Of a stretch of DNA of 64,000 nucleotides, positions 6,853 through 31,914 are shown one piece after another (position 1 is the first letter of the stretch; each line of letters begins with the position of its first letter). Made by a program: the position numbers and the translations under genes. This DNA is from Thioalkalivibrio paradoxus ARh 1 (GTDB lineage: Bacteria; Pseudomonadota; Gammaproteobacteria; Ectothiorhodospirales; Ectothiorhodospiraceae): NCBI RefSeq assembly GCF_000227685.2, contig NZ_CP007029.1:1028501-1092500 (forward strand), written 5' to 3'. Under the pieces are notes generated by a model. That model searched no databases. It was not told where the DNA came from and saw nothing but the letters and a program-made list of their open reading frames with translations.

Positions 6853-7015
6853 GGTCAGGAATCTCCGTTCAAAAGCGCTGGCAGTCATGGCGCCGGCCAC
6901 CACGCCCGATGATAGAAGTCTCGCTCCCCGGTTGCGGGCAAGGGTTGGAGAGGGGTGCAGCGTGCAACTTTCACGTTACCCTCCATGGTGCCCAGCCACC
7001 ACCCGCGACAATGAA

Positions 7016-16508: not shown

Positions 16509-16561
16509 TGTCTAGTCGAAGACGGTTCAGCGTTGCCCCAGGGCGCTGAAGATGGAGCATG

Positions 16562-16590
16562 AAAAAAAGACCGGCCCGAAGGCCGGCGAA
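16562..16590 (-). terminator. Rho-independent terminator of the subtilisin gene
   Basis: Read on the minus strand: GCCGGCC, loop TTCG, GGCCGGT, then seven T. This is a textbook terminator about 60 bases after the protease stop. Confidence 0.9.
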
Positions 16591-16650
16591 GGCGGGGAGG
16601 AACCCCGCAGCGGACGGGCCGGCGTCCCTGCCGGCCCCGTCGAGACAGGG

Positions 16651-18558
16651 TTAGCGGTTCCAGCCTCTTCCGGGGGGCGGGCCACCGCCGCCACCTTCGT
16701 CGTCTCCGCCTGAATCATCGCCATCGCCATCGCCATCGCCATCGCCATCGGGCAATGGGCCGATGTACACAGTGATGCTGGTGCTGCCGATGTTGCCGGC
16801 GGCGTCCATTGCGTGGGCGGCGATCGTGTAGGCGCCGTTTGGCAGCCGGCGGGTGTTCCAGTTGCACTGCACCGAGTCCGAGTTGCTCGCGCACTGCACC
16901 GACCCGTTCACCGAGAGCTCGATGCGGGTCACGCCGACGTTGTCGGTCGCGGAGGCGGACAGGCGCGTGGTGCCGCTGACCTGCGTGCCGTCGGTTGGGC
17001 TGGTGATCGTTGCGACTGGAGCCTCGTCGTCGACCGGGGGCGGTTCCTCGGCCGGGTGCTGCACCGTCACGTCGATTTCGTGGACACCCACGTTGCCCGC
17101 CGCGTCGCGTGCCTCGGCACGCAGTCGCACCGTGCCCTCGGGTTCCTGCTCGGTATCCCAGAGGAACTCATACGGGGCGACGGTTTCGGAGCCCAGCAGG
17201 CGCCCGCCGACGTACAGGTCGACCCGCGACACCCCGACGTCATCGGTGGCCGCGACTTTTACCAGCACGTCGGATTCCACCACCGCGCCATCGGCGGGGG
17301 AGGCGATCGCGACCTCGGGTGCCACCCGGTCGACCTCACCGGACCAGGCCATCATCACTGCTGCGCCGGCGTCCACGCGTCCCCAGCCGTAATAGGGATC
17401 CCAGCCGGCGGCGCCGAGGTCGACCGCGCTGTCGAACAGGATCTGCTCGATCTGGGCGGGTGCCAGCTGGTCGTTCGCGGCCATCACCAGCGCGCCGACG
17501 GCGGCCGTGATCGGGCTCGAGAAGGACGTGCCGCTGACGGATGCATAGCCGCTCCCGACGCTGGTTGTGACGATGCTGCTGCCCGGCGCGGCCATGTCGA
17601 CGTAGTCGCCAAAATTGGACCAGCTTGTCCGGCTGTCGTTACTGGCCGTGGCCGCGACCACAACGACATAGGGAGTGGGGCTGGCGCCGGCATCCGTGCC
17701 GCCGTTGCCCGCTGCACCGAACACCACGCCGCCGTGGTTGCGCACGTGCTGCGCGGCACTCTGCACTGTGGAATGCTGCCACGACATGTAGCTCATGTTG
17801 GCCACGTGGGCACCGTTGTCGGCCGCCCAGGTCAGGCCGCGGGCCATGTCGCTGGAATAGGCGGCACCGTCCGTCCGGTTGCTGACACGGATGGGCATGA
17901 CCATCGCGTTCCAGCCAACCGCGGCAACGCCAATGGCGTTGTCCGTTGCCGCACCCACCGTTCCGGCCACTCGCGTTCCATGGCCATGGATGTCGCTGAT
18001 GTCATCATTCTGGCTGACCGCGTTCCAGCCGGTGACCAGTTTTCCAGCGAAATCGGGGTGTTCGGCCTCGATGCCGGTGTCGAGCACTGCAACGACGATC
18101 CCATCGCCCTTGGACACGGTCCAGGCCGTGGGGGCTTCGATCTTCGGCAGGTGCCAGGCGTTGTCGTAGTGCGGGTCGTTCGGCATGGTCTGGCTCAGTT
18201 CGACCAGGTAGTCCGGTTCGGCGAACTTGATCGCCGGGTTGCGCGAGAGTGCATGCGCCACGGCCTGGACCGCCTGCGGGGCGACCTGGATCTCGCGCAC
18301 GTTGATCGCATCGATCCGGCCGACGGCCTGGCCACCCTGTGCGGCGATGATCTGCTGCAGCCGGGCTTCGGACACGCCCGGCTTCGGCTGCACGAGTACG
18401 CGGCCGGGCTTCCACGGCTCGGTCGGGCTCGCGCCCGCGGAGCCCGGGACCAGCAGGCCCGTGGACAACACGACGATCAGGAAGGTGATCAGAGTGAGGG
18501 CGCCGGACAAGCCGAACAACACGGCAGCCGGTCGGCGAAGCGTGGTCACGAGTTTCAT
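16651..18558 (-). CDS. Secreted subtilisin-like serine peptidase (S8) with C-terminal Ig-like domains
   Basis: 635 residues. Signal/anchor segment at about residues 11-43, an inhibitor-like propeptide (VLVQPKPGVSEARLQQIIAA to about residue 120), then the S8 domain with catalytic Asp160 (VVAVLDTGI), His193 (HGHGTRVAGT) and Ser345 (SGTSFSSP). Two bacterial Ig-like repeats follow (each with ASPADGA/SPTDGT, then ATDDVGVSRVDLYV/ATDNVGVTRIELSV), then a Gly-Asp repeat and a Gly/Pro-rich tail. GGAGGA precedes the ATG at 18558. The long leader contains a cyclic-di-GMP riboswitch, so the enzyme is probably tied to the biofilm/motility switch, perhaps cutting surface adhesins (inference). Confidence 0.93.
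   Translation of the reverse strand: MKLVTTLRRPAAVLFGLSGALTLITFLIVVLSTGLLVPGSAGASPTEPWKPGRVLVQPKPGVSEARLQQIIAAQGGQAVGRIDAINVREIQVAPQAVQAVAHALSRNPAIKFAEPDYLVELSQTMPNDPHYDNAWHLPKIEAPTAWTVSKGDGIVVAVLDTGIEAEHPDFAGKLVTGWNAVSQNDDISDIHGHGTRVAGTVGAATDNAIGVAAVGWNAMVMPIRVSNRTDGAAYSSDMARGLTWAADNGAHVANMSYMSWQHSTVQSAAQHVRNHGGVVFGAAGNGGTDAGASPTPYVVVVAATASNDSRTSWSNFGDYVDMAAPGSSIVTTSVGSGYASVSGTSFSSPITAAVGALVMAANDQLAPAQIEQILFDSAVDLGAAGWDPYYGWGRVDAGAAVMMAWSGEVDRVAPEVAIASPADGAVVESDVLVKVAATDDVGVSRVDLYVGGRLLGSETVAPYEFLWDTEQEPEGTVRLRAEARDAAGNVGVHEIDVTVQHPAEEPPPVDDEAPVATITSPTDGTQVSGTTRLSASATDNVGVTRIELSVNGSVQCASNSDSVQCNWNTRRLPNGAYTIAAHAMDAAGNIGSTSITVYIGPLPDGDGDGDGDGDDSGGDDEGGGGGPPPGRGWNR
16717..16750. repeat. Hexanucleotide tandem repeat (ATCGCC)n in the protease gene
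   Basis: ATCGCC repeated nearly six times. On the coding strand it encodes alternating Gly-Asp near the C-terminus; unit loss or gain keeps frame (6 bases) and would only change tail length. Confidence 0.85.
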
Positions 18559-18715: not shown

Positions 18716-18806
18716 GTCAGCGGCAGCCCCGCTGTCCCCCATTGTCGTTCTTGAATCCGGGGACCGGCGGCTTTGTGTCCCCGCCTTGCGACGGGTTTAC
18801 CTTTGT
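18716..18806 (-). promoter_or_regulatory. Cyclic-di-GMP-I (GEMM) riboswitch aptamer
   Basis: Minus strand, in the leader of the subtilisin gene. In order it shows GGTAAACCC, a GCAA tetraloop hairpin (CCGTC-GCAA-GGCGG), the near-invariant core GGGGACACAAAGCC, a second stem starting CGGTCCCC, and the 3' block GGACAGCGGGGCTGCCG. These match the spacing and core of known GEMM-I aptamers such as Vc2 (AAACC, GGACGCAAAGCC, GGTAGCGGGGTTACC). About 157 bases separate it from the start codon, including two strong hairpins (18642-18665 and GGGGCAT/ATGCCCC near 18700). Whether ligand turns expression on or off cannot be read directly. Confidence 0.88.
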
Positions 18807-18974
18807 CTCGACGAAAAGTGCTAGTCCTTAGCAACTAGAAGTATAGAACAAAAGGTGGGATTCTTGTTGGTAAAAATATAGGACTAAAGATATAAATTTA
18901 CATGATGCTCCGACGTGGTGTCCGCCGGAGAGCTGGAAATCGTGTCGGGTTCTAGCAGCCTGTCGGACAGGCTG

Positions 18975-25257: not shown

Positions 25258-25420
25258 CGTTCCCGTGCTCGCCTGAATGGACGGTAGACCGCGTTCGCGC
25301 CGCGAGGTTGCCGAGGCGGGAGCGACCGCATTCCGGCCGCAGCCTAGCGACAGTCGGTTGACGGGTCTGGCCGGGCGCCCCGATGATGCGTACTGGGCAG
25401 GGCACTGGCCGGGGGCATCG

Positions 25421-26026
25421 ATGCGCCGCTTCGTTCTGGATACCAGCGTTTTCACCAATCCCCACGTGTTCGGGCAGTTCGGCGAGGATCCAGGGGATGG
25501 TTTGCGCACCTTCCTGCGCGTCGCCCGGCGCTGCCCGGCCGAGTTCTACATGCCGCTGTCGGTGTACGACGAGTTCCGGACGATGCGCGATCTGGCCGAA
25601 CTGGCACCCGACTTCGAGACGGTGGTCTGGGTGCGCTCGCCTCGGCGCTTCACGCTGACGATCCCCAGCGACATCCTCTACGAGTTCATCGACGAAGTCC
25701 GCACCCGCATCGATCGCGGGCTGCGGATCGCCGAGGAACATACCAAGCGTGCCGGTGCGGCCGCGGACATGCCGCCGGAGCTCATCACCCAGTTGCGTGA
25801 GCGCTACCGCGAGGCGATGCGCAAGGGTCTGGTCGATTCCCGGGAAGACGTGGACGCGGTGCTGCTGGCGCTGGAGCTGGATGCGGAACTGGCCAGCGCG
25901 GACCAGGGCATGCGCAAACTCGGCAACCGCATGGGTATCAAGCTGGTCACCGCCGACTACCTGCGCCGGGTGATGGAGAACCTAGCGGAATCTCAGGGCG
26001 GAGGGGTTCCCAAGACGTCCGGCTGA
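25421..26026 (+). CDS. RNA ligase partner protein (PIN-domain, MJ_0950 type)
   Basis: 201 residues. Starts MRRFVLDTSVFTNPHVFGQFG with the PIN acidic residue in LDTS; other acidic clusters are SVYDEFRTM, DSREDVDAVLLALELDAELASAD (PIN core) and GIKLVTADYLRR. This matches the TIGR family called RNA ligase partner protein, which always travels with the Pab1020-type ligase. The ligase gene is the next gene, convergent, 20 bases away. The PIN fold implies nuclease activity, so the pair may cut and rejoin RNA (inference). Confidence 0.9.
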   Translation: MRRFVLDTSVFTNPHVFGQFGEDPGDGLRTFLRVARRCPAEFYMPLSVYDEFRTMRDLAELAPDFETVVWVRSPRRFTLTIPSDILYEFIDEVRTRIDRGLRIAEEHTKRAGAAADMPPELITQLRERYREAMRKGLVDSREDVDAVLLALELDAELASADQGMRKLGNRMGIKLVTADYLRRVMENLAESQGGGVPKTSG

Positions 26027-26045: not shown

Positions 26046-27143
26046 TCAGTCGTACTGCACGGCACCGGAAAGGGCGGTGGCCAGGGTGCCGGTCATCCGG
26101 TCGAACACGCGCTCGAACTCCAGGATCCAGTAGCCGTCCTGCTGCACCGGCATGCCCGGGGCCATTCGGACCCGATGCCCGCCGGTGGCCGCCATGTGGT
26201 CCATGAAGTGCAGCGCGTTGCGGCGTTCCCGAAACCGGCAGCGGTAGCGGTGATCGACCCGGCCGCGCGCCCGGCTGCGCTCCACGGCCCGGTCCAGCCC
26301 CGACAGGAACGCGTGGCCAAGGCTGCGCTCGAGTTCGCGATCGCCCTGCCGGCCGTGCTCGGTCACGAACACCGCGAGCCGCGTCAGCCGGTTGATGAAA
26401 TACTCGGGCGGCAGGTCGAGCAATTGCTCGCTGCAGACGCGGATGTCGGTCACGTTGGAGCATCCGGTCACATACTTTGCCCGCGTTCCGCCCGATTCAC
26501 CTTTCAGCACCAGCCCTTCCGCGCCTTCCGCGTCGAGTTGCAGGATCAGATCCCGCAGTCGGTCGACGTCCCGGGGTCCGAACCGGCCGAAGACGCGCGC
26601 CGGGGGCAGGCCATGGGATGCGATCAGCTGCATCTTGGCCTGCTGCCCGAGGAAACCGCCCCGGCCCTGGCGCATCAGGTCGAACACATACAGCGCGATG
26701 TCCTCGGTCACGAACGGGGGCGAGCCCTCGAGATACGGGTTTTCCGGCCCGGCGATCTCGGCGCACAGCACCAGATCGGGTTCGGCTTCGAACAATGCCG
26801 GGTCGATGAAGTCCGGCAGCCGGTCGGTGCTGAACGGGCAGACGAAACCGCCGCGGCTGAAGGCCAGCAGCAAATCTTCGTGGCGCAGGATCCGGACATT
26901 GAACCCGTCGATTTTCTCCTCGGCCCAGAACGGCCCGTCGAACTGCTCCCTTAGTCCGGCAGACAGCGAGTGCACCCGCCCGATCGACGGGTAGCCGGGG
27001 ATCACCACGCCGCCGGGCAACACCACGCTGCCCCGCGGATAGCCGGCAACCGTCTCGGTGAGCCGGGCGTACTCCAACTCTTCGAAACGTAGCCGCTCGG
27101 CTCGTCCCGCGTCGATCGCATCAGCTAGCGTCGCAGTGTCCAT
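26046..27143 (-). CDS. ATP-dependent RNA ligase, Pab1020/MthRnl (Rnl3) type
   Basis: 365 residues. Nucleotidyl-transfer motif I is EEKIDGFNVR (Lys77 would be adenylated). Further motifs: AFSRGGFVCPFSTDR, DLVLCAEIAGPENPY (motif III/IIIa), EGLVLKGESGGTRAKYVTG (motif IV/V with conserved Lys). A C-terminal helical dimerisation domain follows. The family was defined in archaea (Pyrococcus, Methanothermobacter) and is unusual in bacteria. ATG at 27143; longer frame to 27287 overlaps the divergent regulator's promoter and is less likely. Convergent with its PIN partner. Confidence 0.9.
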   Translation of the reverse strand: MDTATLADAIDAGRAERLRFEELEYARLTETVAGYPRGSVVLPGGVVIPGYPSIGRVHSLSAGLREQFDGPFWAEEKIDGFNVRILRHEDLLLAFSRGGFVCPFSTDRLPDFIDPALFEAEPDLVLCAEIAGPENPYLEGSPPFVTEDIALYVFDLMRQGRGGFLGQQAKMQLIASHGLPPARVFGRFGPRDVDRLRDLILQLDAEGAEGLVLKGESGGTRAKYVTGCSNVTDIRVCSEQLLDLPPEYFINRLTRLAVFVTEHGRQGDRELERSLGHAFLSGLDRAVERSRARGRVDHRYRCRFRERRNALHFMDHMAATGGHRVRMAPGMPVQQDGYWILEFERVFDRMTGTLATALSGAVQYD

Positions 27144-27203: not shown

Positions 27204-27235
27204 TGTCAGAATTGGCAGGTAGCCTGACATGACAG
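27204..27235. promoter_or_regulatory. TGNCAG-type operator candidate at the regulator start
   Basis: TGTCAG (27204), TGGCAG (27213) and CTGACA (27224) fall within 26 bases ending on the regulator's ATG; TGTCAG and CTGACA form an inverted repeat. The same hexamer (as CTGCCA/TGGCAG) is clustered downstream of the gene at 28685-28741, suggesting autoregulation. Confidence 0.5.
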
Positions 27236-28578
27236 CAAACGACACCGCCGCCCCCGAGATTCCCGCGGAAACGCTGGCGCTGCTCAACGCCTACCAGGAT
27301 CCCGCGGTGCTGCTGGATCTCGACTACTTCATTCTGGCCGCCAATCCGCCCTACCTGCAGGCGTTCGGCGATGCCGCGCTGAGCGCGCGTCGCCGCTGCT
27401 ACGAGGTTTCGCACGGCTATGCGGTGCCCTGCGACCAGGCCGGTGAGAGCTGCCCGCTGCACGCGAGCCTCGTGTCGAACGACGTGAGCCGGGTGATGCA
27501 CATCCACCACACGCCGCGCGGCGCCGAGCACGTCGACGTGGAAACCCACCCGGTTCCCGGCGCCGATGGCAGCATCCACTACGTGCTGGAAATCATGCGC
27601 CAGACGCGGGTCGCAAGCGCAACGCCGAGTACCTCGCGGATGGTCGGCCGGTCGCCGGCCTTTCGGAAGATGCTGGGCATGATCCAGCGGGCGGCGCCGA
27701 GCGAGGTGGCAGTGCTGCTGCTCGGGGAGACCGGCACGGGCAAGGAGATGGTGGCCCGGGCGATCCACGAGTCCAGCGCGCGTCGGGATGGACCATTCGT
27801 GCCAGTGGAGTGCGCCGGGCTCACCGAGACCTTGTTCGAGAGCGAATTGTTCGGTCACGAAAAGGGTGCGTTCACCGGCGCGACCAGCCTCAAGACCGGA
27901 CTGGTCGAGGCGGCGCGGGGTGGCACGCTTTTCCTCGACGAGGTTGGCGACATTCCGCTGTCGATGCAGGTCAAGCTGCTCCGGCTGCTGGAGACGGGAT
28001 GCTTTCGACGCGTGGGCAGCACGGTGCCCCAGGAGGCCGATTTCCGGCTGGTCTGCGCGACGCACCGGGATCTGAAGGCGCTTGTGGGCGCCGGGCAGTT
28101 CCGCCTCGATCTGTATTTCCGGATCGGCGTGTTTCCGATCCTGCTGCCGCCCCTGCGGCAGCGGCGCGAGGATCTGCCGCTGCTGGTCGAGGCGCTGATG
28201 AGCCGGGTGCGCTCGGCGCGGGGCAAGCATCTGACCCCGGCGGCATTCAGGGCCCTGGAGCGGATGAGCTTCCCGGGCAACATTCGGGAACTGCGCAACG
28301 TGCTCGAGCGTGCGGCCCTGCTGGCGGACGGCGATTCGATCCAGCCCGCCGACCTGATCGTGGACCTGGAATTCCAGCCGGCCGGCGAGGCGGTGCCGCC
28401 TGTCGACACGGTGATCCCGCTGGATGAACTGGAACGGCAGTACCTGGCGCGTGTCGTGGCGCAGTACCCGGGCGACCGCCAGCACCTGGCGCGGCTGCTG
28501 GGCATATCGGAACGGACGCTGTATCGCAAACTGCAGCGGCTGGAAGCCGGTACCTCAGAGCACGAAGGGTCGGATTGA
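27229..28578 (+). CDS. PAS-containing sigma-54-dependent activator (Fis-type HTH)
   Basis: 449 residues. N-terminal PAS-like sensor (about 15-125) with three Cys in [19 protein letters not shown] (57, 68, 75), possibly binding metal or sensing redox. AAA+ domain from about 138: Walker A GETGTGKE (166-173), sigma-54 contact loop GAFTGA (213-218), Walker [12 protein letters not shown], and a [20 protein letters not shown] arginine-finger region. The Fis helix-turn-helix is at the C-terminus ([21 protein letters not shown]). No receiver domain, so it should respond to a ligand or redox state rather than phosphorylation. The next stretch contains matching enhancer-like repeats and a sigma-54 promoter. 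Confidence 0.94.
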
Positions 28579-28684: not shown

Positions 28685-28741
28685 CTGCCACGCTCTGCCA
28701 GTGTCTGCCAGGGCGACTGCCATCGCTGCCAGTTGTGGCAG
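28685..28741 (+). promoter_or_regulatory. Clustered CTGCCA repeats, probable enhancer (UAS)
   Basis: CTGCCA at 28685, 28695, 28705, 28717 and 28726, and the inverse TGGCAG at 28736. The first three are exactly one helical turn apart. The cluster ends about 120 bases upstream of the sigma-54 promoter, the distance expected for enhancer-binding proteins. The same hexamer occurs in the regulator's own promoter. Confidence 0.7.
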
Positions 28742-28863
28742 CCGTCCTCCCGGTTGGGGCGCGGCTGCAGCCGCTGCTGCGCCCTGGTATGTGTTTCCTA
28801 AGGTTCTCAAAAACAGCAATTAGAAGGGTTTTCGGCTTTGTTTCGAGCGGTCTTCATTGCATG

Positions 28864-28879
28864 TGGCATAGATAATGCT
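28864..28879 (+). promoter_or_regulatory. Sigma-54 promoter
   Basis: TGGCATAGATAATGCT: GG of the -24 element and GC of the -12 element with exactly ten bases between, in good agreement with TGGCACG-N4-TTGCW. Predicted start near 28890. Confidence 0.78.
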
Positions 28880-28889
28880 TATGTTCTGA

Positions 28890-28997
28890 TGAGTTGTCGC
28901 TTGGCGGGTGCGGAGGCACCCGGCTCTGGACGGAACTTGCGCGTGCGCGACTCTCCTCCATCGCGCCTTTGCCGCCCCCCCGGGGGCGGTTTTTTTT
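28890..28997 (+). ncRNA. Candidate sigma-54-dependent small RNA (or attenuated leader)
   Basis: About 108 bases from the predicted start to the end of a strong terminator. Hairpin 1 (28905-28922) has stem CGGGTGC/GCACCCG with a GGAG loop. A linker contains GGACGGAAC. Hairpin 2 (28945-28966) has stem GCGCGA/TCGCGC and exposes the pyrimidine loop CTCTCCTCCA, an anti-Shine-Dalgarno-like sequence. Hairpin 3 is the terminator. No open frame of note. It could act in trans on ribosome sites, bind CsrA-type proteins through the GGA motifs, or be a premature-termination leader for the gene at 29130. Confidence 0.6.
28972..28997 (+). terminator. Rho-independent terminator between sigma-54 promoter and next gene
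   Basis: Stem CCGCCCCC / GGGGGCGG with a minimal loop followed by eight T. It lies 130 bases before the start of the reductase gene, not after a gene. Confidence 0.9.
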
Positions 28998-29129
28998 GGG
29001 CGGCTGCACTGCGGGATCGCCGCTCAGCTGCTAGGCTTCGATTCGGTTCCCCGGCAGGTGTCGGGCCCGGGTCCGTTTCCGGGTACCCGGCCAGAAGGCC
29101 ACGGCCCTGATCGAGGATCGGGAGGACGC

Positions 29130-30626
29130 ATGGACAAACAGTTGTCGGTGATCCGCGCGGCACGATTGGCGGGGGTCACGCGGGGTGAATTGCAGACGCG
29201 CATCAAATGCGGTGACCTGCCCAGTTTCGACGGCACGGTGCGCGTCGATGACCTGCTCGAGTTGTACCCCGGAACCCGTCTGGAAGACGACCGAACGCTC
29301 GAGCGCGTCGACCGGATCAAGGCCGCCGCGCTGGGACGGGATATCGCCGGCCGCAGCCTGCCGGAGCCGCAGGTGCTGGCCGAAAGGCTGGCGATCCTCG
29401 GCCACAAGTTGACGCGCGCCCGCTGGCAGGCCGAGCATTACGCGGCCGTGTTCGAGGCATTGGAATCCCGTCTGCGGGAACTGGAGAAACGTCGTGACGG
29501 ACCCACGCGCGCAGTCGCGCAGGACATCAAGCTCTGGATGCAGAGCGCGTTGCACCAAGGGCTGGCGGAGTCGGATTTGGCTGGCAGCGCCCTCGCGGAC
29601 CGGAGTCACTGGATGAGCGTGATGGCACCGCAGGTGCGGCTGCTGCCCGACCACCAGGAGTTCCTGGTGGAAGGCTCGGACACGGTGCTCGATGCCGCGC
29701 TGAGAGCCGGGTTGTCGATCAGCTATGGCTGCAGCAACGGCAACTGCGGAGAGTGCAAGGCACGGGTCGTGTCCGGGGAGGTCCGGGCAGTGCGGCCGCA
29801 CGATTACGTGATCCCCGAGAGCGAGCGCGATCAGGGATATGCGCTGATGTGCGCGGTGGCCCCGGTCACCGACCTGGTGGTCGAGGTCGGGGTCGCGCGC
29901 AGCCCCGACCAGATCCCGTTGCAGACGATCGAGGCGATGGTGCGCGACGTCGAACAGCCGGGTCCCCATCTGCGGGTGGTCCGGGTGCAGACGCCGCGGA
30001 CCCGGCGCCTGCGTTTCCTCGGCGGGCAGTACGTTCGCGTGCGCCTGGACGAGGGCCGGGTAGAGGGTCGGCTGCCGCTGGCCAACTGCCCCTGCGATGA
30101 CCGGAATCTGGTGCTGCACGTGGCCGAGGATCGAGACGATGCGTTTGCGGTGTATTGCTTCGAACGCCTGGCCAAGGGCGAGCGCGTCGAAATCGAGGGG
30201 CCCTACGGGGACTTCGTGATCGGGGACGAGGTCGAGCGGCCGCTCGTCTTCCTCGCCTGCGATACCGGATTCGCCCCGATCAAGAGCCTGATCGAGCATG
30301 TGATTGCGCTGGACATCGCCGACGCGATGGATCTGGTGTGGCTGGCGACCGGCGCGATCGGCCACTACGAGGACAATCTCTGCCGTTCCTGGGGCGACGC
30401 GCTCGACAACTTCCGCTACAAACCCGTGCGGGTCGGCGCGGCGAGCGACCGGGAAGCCTGGCCTGCGCTGATCGCGGGCAGTCTGTCCCGCGTGCAAGAA
30501 CCGGCGGGCCGCGATTACTACGTCGCGGGTCCCGGCCGCTTCATCGAGGCCGCCGCCACGGTGCTCGACCGGCTGGGTGTGCCGCCCGAGCGCCGCTTCC
30601 TGCAGGGGATTCCCCCGGCGGCCTAG
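29130..30626 (+). CDS. 2Fe-2S ferredoxin-NAD(P)H reductase-like protein with unusual N-terminal domain
   Basis: 498 residues; GGAGG precedes the ATG at 29130. Residues 1-150 form an uncharacterised, mostly helical region beginning with an HTH-like segment (LSVIRAARLAGVTRGELQTRIKCGDLP). Next is a plant-type ferredoxin domain with cluster ligands in SYGCSNGNCGECKARV and a later Cys in GYALMCAV. The rest is an FAD/NAD reductase fold (GGQYVRVRL; FLACDTGFAPIKSLIEH; DYYVAGPGRFIEA). The reductase half resembles phenol-hydroxylase or CDP-glucoseen reductases. No oxygenase is adjacent, so the electron acceptor is unknown. It lies downstream of the sigma-54 promoter and terminator. Confidence 0.85.
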   Translation: MDKQLSVIRAARLAGVTRGELQTRIKCGDLPSFDGTVRVDDLLELYPGTRLEDDRTLERVDRIKAAALGRDIAGRSLPEPQVLAERLAILGHKLTRARWQAEHYAAVFEALESRLRELEKRRDGPTRAVAQDIKLWMQSALHQGLAESDLAGSALADRSHWMSVMAPQVRLLPDHQEFLVEGSDTVLDAALRAGLSISYGCSNGNCGECKARVVSGEVRAVRPHDYVIPESERDQGYALMCAVAPVTDLVVEVGVARSPDQIPLQTIEAMVRDVEQPGPHLRVVRVQTPRTRRLRFLGGQYVRVRLDEGRVEGRLPLANCPCDDRNLVLHVAEDRDDAFAVYCFERLAKGERVEIEGPYGDFVIGDEVERPLVFLACDTGFAPIKSLIEHVIALDIADAMDLVWLATGAIGHYEDNLCRSWGDALDNFRYKPVRVGAASDREAWPALIAGSLSRVQEPAGRDYYVAGPGRFIEAAATVLDRLGVPPERRFLQGIPPAA

Positions 30627-30631
30627 CGCCC

Positions 30632-31327
30632 ATGGCGCCCTCTGCACCGCCGGCCCGTCTGTCGGTGATCGTGCCCGTACTGAACGAGGCGGCCCGCCTG
30701 CCGCGGTTGCTCGGCGACCTTGCCGCGCTGCGAACCCTGGGGCACGAGGTGATCGTGGTCGACGGCGGCAGCACGGACCGGACCCGAGAGATCGCCTGCA
30801 GCGCCTGCGACCGGGTACTGGCCAGCGCGCCGGGACGCGCCCGGCAGATGAACGCGGGTGCGCTCGAGGCACAGGGCGAGGTGCTCTGGTTCCTGCACGC
30901 CGATACGCGGGTTCCGCCCGAGGCGGCGCATGCTGTCCTGCAGTCGCTCCGCGGGCCGAAATGCTGGGGCCGCTGCCGGGTTCGCCTGTCGGGGCGGGCC
31001 CTGGTCTACCGGCTGATCGCCGCGTTGATGAACCTGCGTTCCTGTCTGACCGGGATCGCAACCGGCGACCAGGGCGTGTACGTGACGCGCGCGGCTTTTG
31101 TTGCGGCCGGCGGTTTTCCCGCGATCCCGCTGATGGAGGACATCGCGCTGTCGCGGGCGCTCAAGCGCGCCTGCGGTCGGCCCGTGTGCCTGCCCGTCCG
31201 GCTGGAAACGTCGAGCCGGCGCTGGGAGGAACACGGCGTGCTGCGAACCGTTTTGCTGATGTGGGCGCTGCGCCTGGCCTACTGGCGCGGAGCCGATCCG
31301 GCGGACCTGGCCCGGCGCTATCGATGA
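30632..31327 (+). CDS. Family 2 glycosyltransferase, TIGR04283 type
   Basis: 231 residues, GT-A fold. LSVIVPVLNEAARLPRLLGDL at the start, VIVVDGGSTDRTREIA (nucleotide-binding), and VLWFLHADTRVPPEA containing the DxD-like site, then GDQGVYVTRAAFVAAGGFPAIPLMED. This family occurs next to TIGR04282 proteins, as here: the stop overlaps the following ATG (ATGA). The sugar and acceptor are unknown. Confidence 0.88.
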   Translation: MAPSAPPARLSVIVPVLNEAARLPRLLGDLAALRTLGHEVIVVDGGSTDRTREIACSACDRVLASAPGRARQMNAGALEAQGEVLWFLHADTRVPPEAAHAVLQSLRGPKCWGRCRVRLSGRALVYRLIAALMNLRSCLTGIATGDQGVYVTRAAFVAAGGFPAIPLMEDIALSRALKRACGRPVCLPVRLETSSRRWEEHGVLRTVLLMWALRLAYWRGADPADLARRYR

Positions 31328-31914
31328 GGCTGCTGGTATTTGCCAAGGCTCCGCAGCCCGGTCAGGTCAAGACACGCCTGATTCCGGCACTGGGTGCCGA
31401 GGGCGCCGCGCGACTGCACCGCAGGCTGGTGCGCCGCGTTCTTGCAGCGGCACGCGCGAGCGCGGTCGGCCCGGTCGAACTTTGGGGAGCGCCGGATACA
31501 CGGCATTCCTTCTTCGCGCAGTGCCAGCGCGAGTTCGGCTGCGCGCTGCGGGCGCAGCCAGCCGGGGATCTCGGGCAACGCATGTCGGCGGCATTGCATG
31601 CGGGACTGCCCGCGCTGCTGGTCGGCTCCGATGCGCCCGGGCTCGATGCGGCACGGCTGCAGGACGCAGCCGCCGCGCTGGCCGAGGGCAGCGAGGTGGT
31701 GTTGATTCCGGCGCTGGACGGGGGCTATGTCGGGATCGGCCTGGCCGTACCCGCGCCCGGACTGTTCACGGCGATTCCCTGGGGCAGCGCGGACGTGCTG
31801 CGGCAGACGCTGGACCGGTGCCGCGAACAGGGTTTGCGCTGGTCCCGGCGGGCGCCGTGTCCGGATGTCGACCGGCCCGGCGACTTGATCCACTGTATCC
31901 CCGACCTGCTGTAA
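31324..31914 (+). CDS. TIGR04282/DUF2064 nucleotidyltransferase-like (glycosyltransferase A) protein
   Basis: 196 residues. MRLLVFAKAPQPGQVKTRLIPALG is the hallmark N-terminus (sugar-nucleotidyltransferase-like loop with Lys and Arg); LLVGSDAPGLDAARLQDA and LIPALDGGYVGIGL are further family blocks. It overlaps the TIGR04283 gene by four bases, a conserved pairing. Function is unproven; probably works with its partner on a glycoconjugate. Confidence 0.88.
   Translation: MRLLVFAKAPQPGQVKTRLIPALGAEGAARLHRRLVRRVLAAARASAVGPVELWGAPDTRHSFFAQCQREFGCALRAQPAGDLGQRMSAALHAGLPALLVGSDAPGLDAARLQDAAAALAEGSEVVLIPALDGGYVGIGLAVPAPGLFTAIPWGSADVLRQTLDRCREQGLRWSRRAPCPDVDRPGDLIHCIPDLL

Follow-up and report, generated by a model that had tools for sequence, protein, structure and literature searches.

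A sigma-54-type promoter and a conserved anti-Shine-Dalgarno hairpin in Thioalkalivibrio: a candidate small RNA that may derive from a peptide mRNA

What does a sigma-54-type promoter drive when no gene follows it? The question is raised by Thioalkalivibrio paradoxus ARh 1 (genome a single contig of 3,756,729 bases), in which such a promoter, two hairpins and a terminator lie between the gene for a sigma-54 enhancer-binding protein (EBP) and a reductase-like gene. The original prediction, made from one 64,000-nucleotide stretch (here called the window; all positions refer to it), was of a regulatory RNA of three hairpins. The letters and positions claimed for its elements are confirmed in the window sequence (Table 1). 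The predicted 5' end is placed 12 nt past the C of the -12 element, and regulator, operator, promoter and RNA together span about 1.8 kb.

Table 1. Features of the locus, in window coordinates
Feature	Position	Strand	Basis and remarks
EBP gene, sigma-54 enhancer-binding protein	27229..28578	+	Pfam PF08448, PF00158, PF02954
Probable EBP operator	28686..28741	+	five TGCCA and one TGGCA, in steps of 9-12 bp
Terminal palindrome of the operator, CTGCCAGTTGTGGCAG	28726..28741	+	sequence
Sigma-54 promoter, TGGCATAGATAATGCT	28864..28879	+	GG at 28865-28866, GC at 28877-28878; pattern match
Predicted transcript, about 108 nt	28890..28997	+	inferred from promoter geometry and terminator
Hairpin 1, GGGTGC-GGAG-GCACCC, loop GGAG	28906..28921	+	sequence; conserved only in one sister species (degenerate)
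GGACGGA	28928..28934	+	sequence
Anti-Shine-Dalgarno hairpin, GCGCGA-CTCTCCTCCA-TCGCGC	28945..28966	+	conserved, 12 of 12 aligned copies
Anti-Shine-Dalgarno loop, CTCTCCTCCA	28951..28960	+	TCCTCCA part invariant
Intrinsic terminator	28971..28997	+	stem from 28971; T8 at 28990-28997
Extended -10-like element TGCTAGGCT, possible separate promoter of the downstream operon	29029..29037	+	TGCTAnnCT, 11 of 11 main loci, by eye
2Fe-2S ferredoxin/flavin reductase-like gene	29130..30626	+	Pfam PF00111; NCBIfam below cut-offs; synteny

Conservation of the hairpin and terminator

From the window alone the feature does not exceed chance. By chance, 0.58 matches to the sigma-54 promoter pattern are expected in each window, and a 112-nt fold is no better than its shuffles (z = -0.73); the best and centroid structures of those 112 nt pair the anti-Shine-Dalgarno (anti-SD) loop with the upstream UGGACGGA, and hence hide it. 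The anti-SD stem has a probability of about 0.49 in the predicted 108-nt transcript and of 0.06-0.99 across the full-length predicted folds of all 12 copies, exceeding 0.5 in only seven. Short 3' fragments form the hairpin in five of the six copies tested (L009 folds otherwise), with z from -2.6 to -3.4 in five relatives, L009 included, and -1.0 in the window.

Comparison with relatives confirms, at the level of sequence, that the feature lies beyond chance. A DNA similarity search of 30 genomes of the genus gives matches in 13, the window's own included, of which 11 have the full hairpin, one (G027) has a copy that a contig end truncates, and one (G022) has the terminator only. A covariance model of the 3' end, built from 12 copies with 13 base pairs and run on 47 genomes of the family (the order-level set consists of the same 47), scores hairpin plus terminator at 74-90 bits in 12 copies from 11 genomes, all in the window's genus; the next-best match reaches 33.8 bits. 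Among 17 weak matches inspected by eye (L042 and L054 left out) no such hairpin was seen and most are terminator-like, L040 being a loop-less look-alike. A pattern scan of the genome collection found at least 119 stretches, and among the 80 loci listed and scored the top seven, six at 82-90 bits and a partial copy at 38.1, are all Thioalkalivibrio, the next scoring 27.3.

Since these loci were initially found by similarity of the hairpin itself, the EBP protein was used as an independent starting point. It has close orthologues in 13 genomes (71-100% identical), and in all ten with DNA downstream of it on the same contig, the window's included, the hairpin follows (9 of 9 relatives). In the other three (G018, G022, G024) the contig ends 3-142 bases past the EBP gene, and G024 has a hairpin near the end of another contig. 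A second copy of the RNA in the genome G019 has other genes around it, as well as an ORF and a sigma-54 promoter of its own.

The conserved core is the anti-SD loop on its GC stem, as the original prediction would have it, together with the strong terminator. In the 12 aligned copies UCCUCCA is invariant and the first three letters of the loop vary; of the six stem pairs only one varies, between A-U and G-U; six of the seven terminator pairs are invariant and the seventh is broken in one copy. These copies were excised by way of the core TCCTCCATCGCGC (leaving out L012, from the contig end in G027, and L013 and L015, which are terminator only), so selection accounts for part of the core's invariance in this alignment; the covariance model, which allows for changes, recovered these 12 strong copies and no further ones among the 47 family genomes. 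The stem is so nearly invariant that it offers no covariation evidence. Mean pairwise identity of the 22-nt hairpin is 0.936 over the 11 main loci, against 0.241 in the 93 nt upstream and 0.457 in the 93 nt downstream (gaps counted as differences). Compared with the window, nine loci are identical at 18-22 of the 22 hairpin positions; in eight of these nine, identity at third codon positions of conserved EBP residues is 0.44-0.54, and in the sister species (G002) 0.73. A sigma-54-type element, judged by pattern and by eye, precedes all 12 full copies, some of which deviate in the -24 part.

Other parts of the original prediction did not survive the comparison. A covariance search, as it proposed, recovers the anti-SD hairpin and the terminator. 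In the sequences upstream of the copies neither hairpin 1 nor GGACGGA is conserved: the former is confined to the window and, in degenerate form, one sister species, so that three hairpins as the unit are not supported, and the latter is not shared with relatives. Binding of CsrA/RsmA by GGA loops, and with it a sponge RNA for those proteins, loses its support, because the GGA loops in question are not conserved. A coding role for the hairpin region was considered and rejected: in one group of copies the absence of two bases just ahead of the stem shifts the frames, and ATG ORFs overlapping the hairpin in relatives do not share a common frame.

The peptide ORF of relatives and the shared operator

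That the promoter is followed not by a gene, as first claimed, holds for the window and fails as a description of the ancestral state. In 10 of the 12 copies a 24-codon ORF, typically MKILVASGMASLTIVGAMLLAYSI, lies between promoter and hairpin; the window and its sister have none. A peptide search of the 30 genus genomes yields 13 copies of the ORF in 10 genomes, three of them with no such hairpin within 400 bases behind. Among the 78 pairs of these 13 copies there are 612 synonymous codon differences and 289 that are not, and differences by codon position number 758 at the third, 203 at the first and 150 at the second (the pairs are non-independent), a pattern like that of a translated gene. 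The 24-residue peptide is hydrophobic and has no Pfam or NCBIfam match. Paralogous 24-codon ORFs occur at L217, L218, L214 and L026; L214 starts inside its promoter, and the other three have a sigma-54-type promoter and a palindrome GGTGC-N4-GCACC, possibly marking a second EBP regulon.

In an EBP tree of 23 of the 24 loci L058-L081 (L079, from G014, left out), the window and its sister branch within the group that has the ORF, though support is modest (82/84). Since they are nested among ORF-bearing loci, loss of the ORF is likelier than gain, and in the window's lineage it was probably lost rather than gained elsewhere.

The EBP has a PAS_4 domain, a sigma-54 AAA+ domain with GAFTGA and a Fis-type HTH; cysteines 57, 68 and 75 and the GAFTGA motif are present in all 23 orthologues aligned. 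(The EBP frame of G025 contains an internal TGA, and the RNA there is intact.) The original prediction of sigma-54 control, with an EBP gene directly upstream, gains support from a putative operator: CTGnCA-N4-TGGCR is found upstream in all 11 main loci, both ORF-less genomes included, 110-112 bp from the promoter in ten and 123 bp in the window. As sequence, then, the locus has the -24/-12 promoter and upstream operator that a sigma-54-dependent sRNA calls for. The pattern occurs four times in the window, against 0.46 expected: once at 6878, and at the locus as the palindrome on both strands plus one overlapping match. A scan of nine genomes gives 18 matches against 8 for a reversed control, so that single matches have to be judged by place; the main locus is matched in 7 of the 7 RNA-bearing genomes given, and there is one clear additional site, before a cytochrome operon in G002. 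A different palindrome, GGTGC-N4-GCACC, is present instead at the second G019 copy and at two ORF paralogues for which there is upstream DNA; these may thus answer to another EBP.

The cytochrome site recurs. In G043 and G044, from another genus, an operator of similar form, a sigma-54 promoter and a gene matching Cyt_bd_oxida_I lie behind the EBP gene. In the window's genome and in G002 (where a fragment matches Cyt_bd_oxida_I at 26.9 bits, cut-off 26.2) a bd-like cytochrome gene lies elsewhere, again with operator and sigma-54 promoter. The operator lies 113 bp before the promoter in G002 and, as CTGCCAATATTGGCG, 143 bp before it in the window's genome. The gene is found in only these four of the 20 genomes searched, and is absent from the nine ORF-and-RNA-bearing genomes, four of which are less than 80% complete. 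At G000:C1:3733243 onwards (L242) the bd-like cytochrome subunit, for which no PDB sequence match was found, is followed in frame by a segment with a haem-c type CSNCH, and here too there are a sigma-54 promoter and an operator of the EBP type. The similar operator and sigma-54 promoter before the cytochrome operon suggest that RNA and operon probably belong to one regulon, and the three invariant PAS cysteines, together with the cytochrome target, lead us to infer that the EBP may be a redox or electron-acceptor sensor. The genus also has nine EBP orthologues of lower identity (L073-L081, 55-59%), which precede other genes, for example for a secreted-looking protein in L073-L076 and, at L079, presumably for a peroxiredoxin; by the covariance model their genomes have no strong match to the RNA.

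Relation to known RNAs and competing explanations

The claim that no RNA of such sequence has been described stands, in that scores at the locus stay below the gathering score for every Rfam family. A permissive scan of 28850-29130 returns 12 matches, all far below gathering scores, the highest being anti-hemB (RF02837) at 21.8 bits against 49.5. The toxic double-hairpin RNA RF02278 scores 15.3 against 50; its architecture, an unpaired CU-rich stretch complementary to the ribosome-binding site and then a terminator hairpin, is present here in sequence, full-length folds being less clear.

CrcZ, Qrr and GlmY are stand-alone sigma-54 sRNAs, in which a sigma-54 promoter and an EBP drive a non-coding RNA; their sequences and mechanisms differ from those of the present RNA, which has no Rfam match at threshold. 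The sRNA from the glutamine synthetase 3'UTR is GlnZ, which is under NtrC/sigma-54 control and likewise comes from the 3' end of a sigma-54-driven mRNA, although its parent mRNA encodes an enzyme; we know of no anti-SD double hairpin in GlnZ. CcsR (cuckoo) RNAs have anti-SD character. Among published systems, the available text of PMC9731577 describes a 3'UTR sRNA of the glutamine synthetase mRNA, and that of PMC5688073 describes Burkholderia double-hairpin RNAs that, as here, consist of one hairpin with an unpaired CU-rich stretch complementary to ribosome sites, plus a terminator hairpin; what sets the present locus apart from the latter is its control by sigma-54 and an EBP and the peptide ORF that relatives have. 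The CIN1 locus, going by the available text of PMC10253847, encodes a DUF1127 protein and four CcsR RNAs behind an RpoHI/RpoHII promoter, and also joins a small ORF and hairpin sRNA in one transcript. In ten of our 12 copies, all but those of the window and its sister, a small ORF shares a predicted transcript with an anti-SD hairpin; none has a co-transcribed DUF1127 ORF, the relatives' ORF encoding 24 hydrophobic residues and the window having no ORF, and here there is sigma-54 control and a single hairpin. The alpha-r14 RNA NfeR1 also has anti-SD loops, which silence mRNAs at the ribosome site, and has three hairpins with CCUCCUCCC where the present RNA has one with UCUCCUCCA (available text of PMC10746234). 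A survey of novel RNAs that includes Thioalkalivibrio motifs names mgtE, aceE-II, ykoW and smtA motifs in the available text, none of them the present RNA (PMC11109978); the available text of literature on Thioalkalivibrio small RNAs and T. paradoxus RNA-seq contains no mention of the locus. The best reading is that of a sigma-54-dependent sRNA pairing with ribosome-binding sites, akin to the double-hairpin RNAs, CcsR and GlnZ and below the threshold of every known family.

We think it rather probable that the RNA is a sigma-54 sRNA which represses in trans and whose ancestor was a peptide mRNA. A short RNA would be transcribed from the sigma-54 promoter, activated by the adjacent redox-type EBP; its working part would be the 3' end, a GC-clamped hairpin displaying UCUCCUCCA, followed by terminator and U-tail. 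Most likely the UCCUCCA loop would pair in trans with Shine-Dalgarno (SD) regions of mRNAs (UGGAGGA), blocking their translation while the EBP is active. In most relatives that have it, this 3' end is the tail of the mRNA for the 24-residue peptide, so the RNA probably descends from a peptide mRNA whose 3' end was regulatory; T. paradoxus and its sister, the ORF gone, would retain the RNA alone.

No target stands out. Perfect 8-nt loop complements before ATG (TGGAGGAG-N2..11-ATG) were counted in two genomes and hardly exceed those of a reversed control: the window's genome has 15, with 11 for the control, and the sister has 28, with 28 for the control. Thiocyanate dehydrogenase (identified by way of PDB 5f75) is the most attractive candidate on physiological grounds. 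It was found in only three of the 30 genus genomes and in none of the other nine RNA-bearing genomes, and was set aside as its SD stretch is the same in G028, a genome that lacks the RNA and has only a weak terminator-like match. The reductase gene was likewise rejected: its SD region pairs over 6 nt in the window, and the stretch is not conserved in relatives. By eye, the loop shows no consistent pairing with the peptide ORF's own SD.

This lack of a trans target is one point for the explanation that competes most directly, namely that the hairpin is a cis element of the peptide mRNA, a 3'-end stabiliser or part of a bipartite terminator, and a relic in the window's lineage. Its position directly before the terminator in 12 of 12 copies, with the ORF ahead of it in ten, fits that role as well. 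A stabiliser, however, has no need for an unpaired UCCUCCA, which is among the most constant parts of the RNA; the hairpin persists where the ORF is absent, in two genomes far removed from the others; and three ORF paralogues have no such hairpin within the 400 bases behind them. We regard a cis element as unlikely. Quite unlikely, in our judgement, is that the loop is the site of an RNA-binding protein, or a sponge for some RNA carrying GGAGGA, instead of a seed for pairing with mRNAs: loop and stem letters do hardly vary, but the loop is a plain SD complement, the seed type of known anti-SD RNAs (available text of PMC10746234 and PMC5688073), and there is no conservation of the GGA loops suggested to bind CsrA.

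The original prediction itself named an attenuated leader of the reductase operon, with the terminator bypassed under some condition, as its alternative. The reductase gene is read in the same direction, its start codon lies about 130 bases past the end of the T-run, and a GTG frame from 28908 in the window is open through the terminator into the gene. A leader of this kind should have a constant downstream gene lacking a promoter of its own, yet the RNA is retained in two of the 11 main loci where no reductase follows, the second G019 copy does not precede a reductase gene, and the TGCTAnnCT element after the terminator in all 11 main loci (no -35 was identified) suggests that the reductase operon has its own promoter. 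In the sister the frame matching the GTG frame is a 29-codon ATG ORF that stops at the terminator; we take both frames to be by-products of similar DNA, and judge the leader very improbable. Least of all do we credit a chance, functionless fold in GC-rich DNA: non-significance of fold and promoter pattern in the window alone would allow it, and it is already contradicted, so far as comparison of sequences goes, by conservation far exceeding that of third codon positions, by synteny and by the operator.

If the sRNA reading is true, this is a sigma-54 small-RNA circuit in soda-lake sulfur bacteria. It may even represent a transition from mRNA to sRNA within one genus, a suggestion we offer tentatively and would not yet back over its opposite: the T. 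paradoxus lineage would have lost the ORF for a membrane peptide and have the bd-like cytochrome operon under a like operator instead, leaving a pure regulatory RNA with the EBP circuit unchanged. Versions with and without the ORF, along with ORF paralogues that lack the hairpin, make functions of peptide and RNA separable, and as natural variants they permit a direct test of how a stand-alone sRNA arises from the 3' end of an mRNA.

Neighbouring features

Adjoining the EBP gene are the gene for a PIN_5 protein (25322-26023, +), a HARP-type protein-only RNase P going by the available text of PMC12153264, and beside it an RNA ligase gene (26049-27143, -); nine of 12 context loci contain the PIN gene and seven the RNA ligase. 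Farther upstream, a c-di-GMP-I-GGC riboswitch (18718-18810, -, 69.6 bits) lies about 160 bases upstream of a gene at 16651-18558 (-), which we take to encode a secreted subtilisin-like protease. Behind that gene a double hairpin resembling the conserved one (16560-16609, -; 32.9 bits) has a short UUCCU loop ahead of a terminator. Downstream of the reductase gene, 30632-31914 (+) encodes two glycosyltransferases that match the arsenosugar-labelled models TIGR04283 and TIGR04282 above cut-off.
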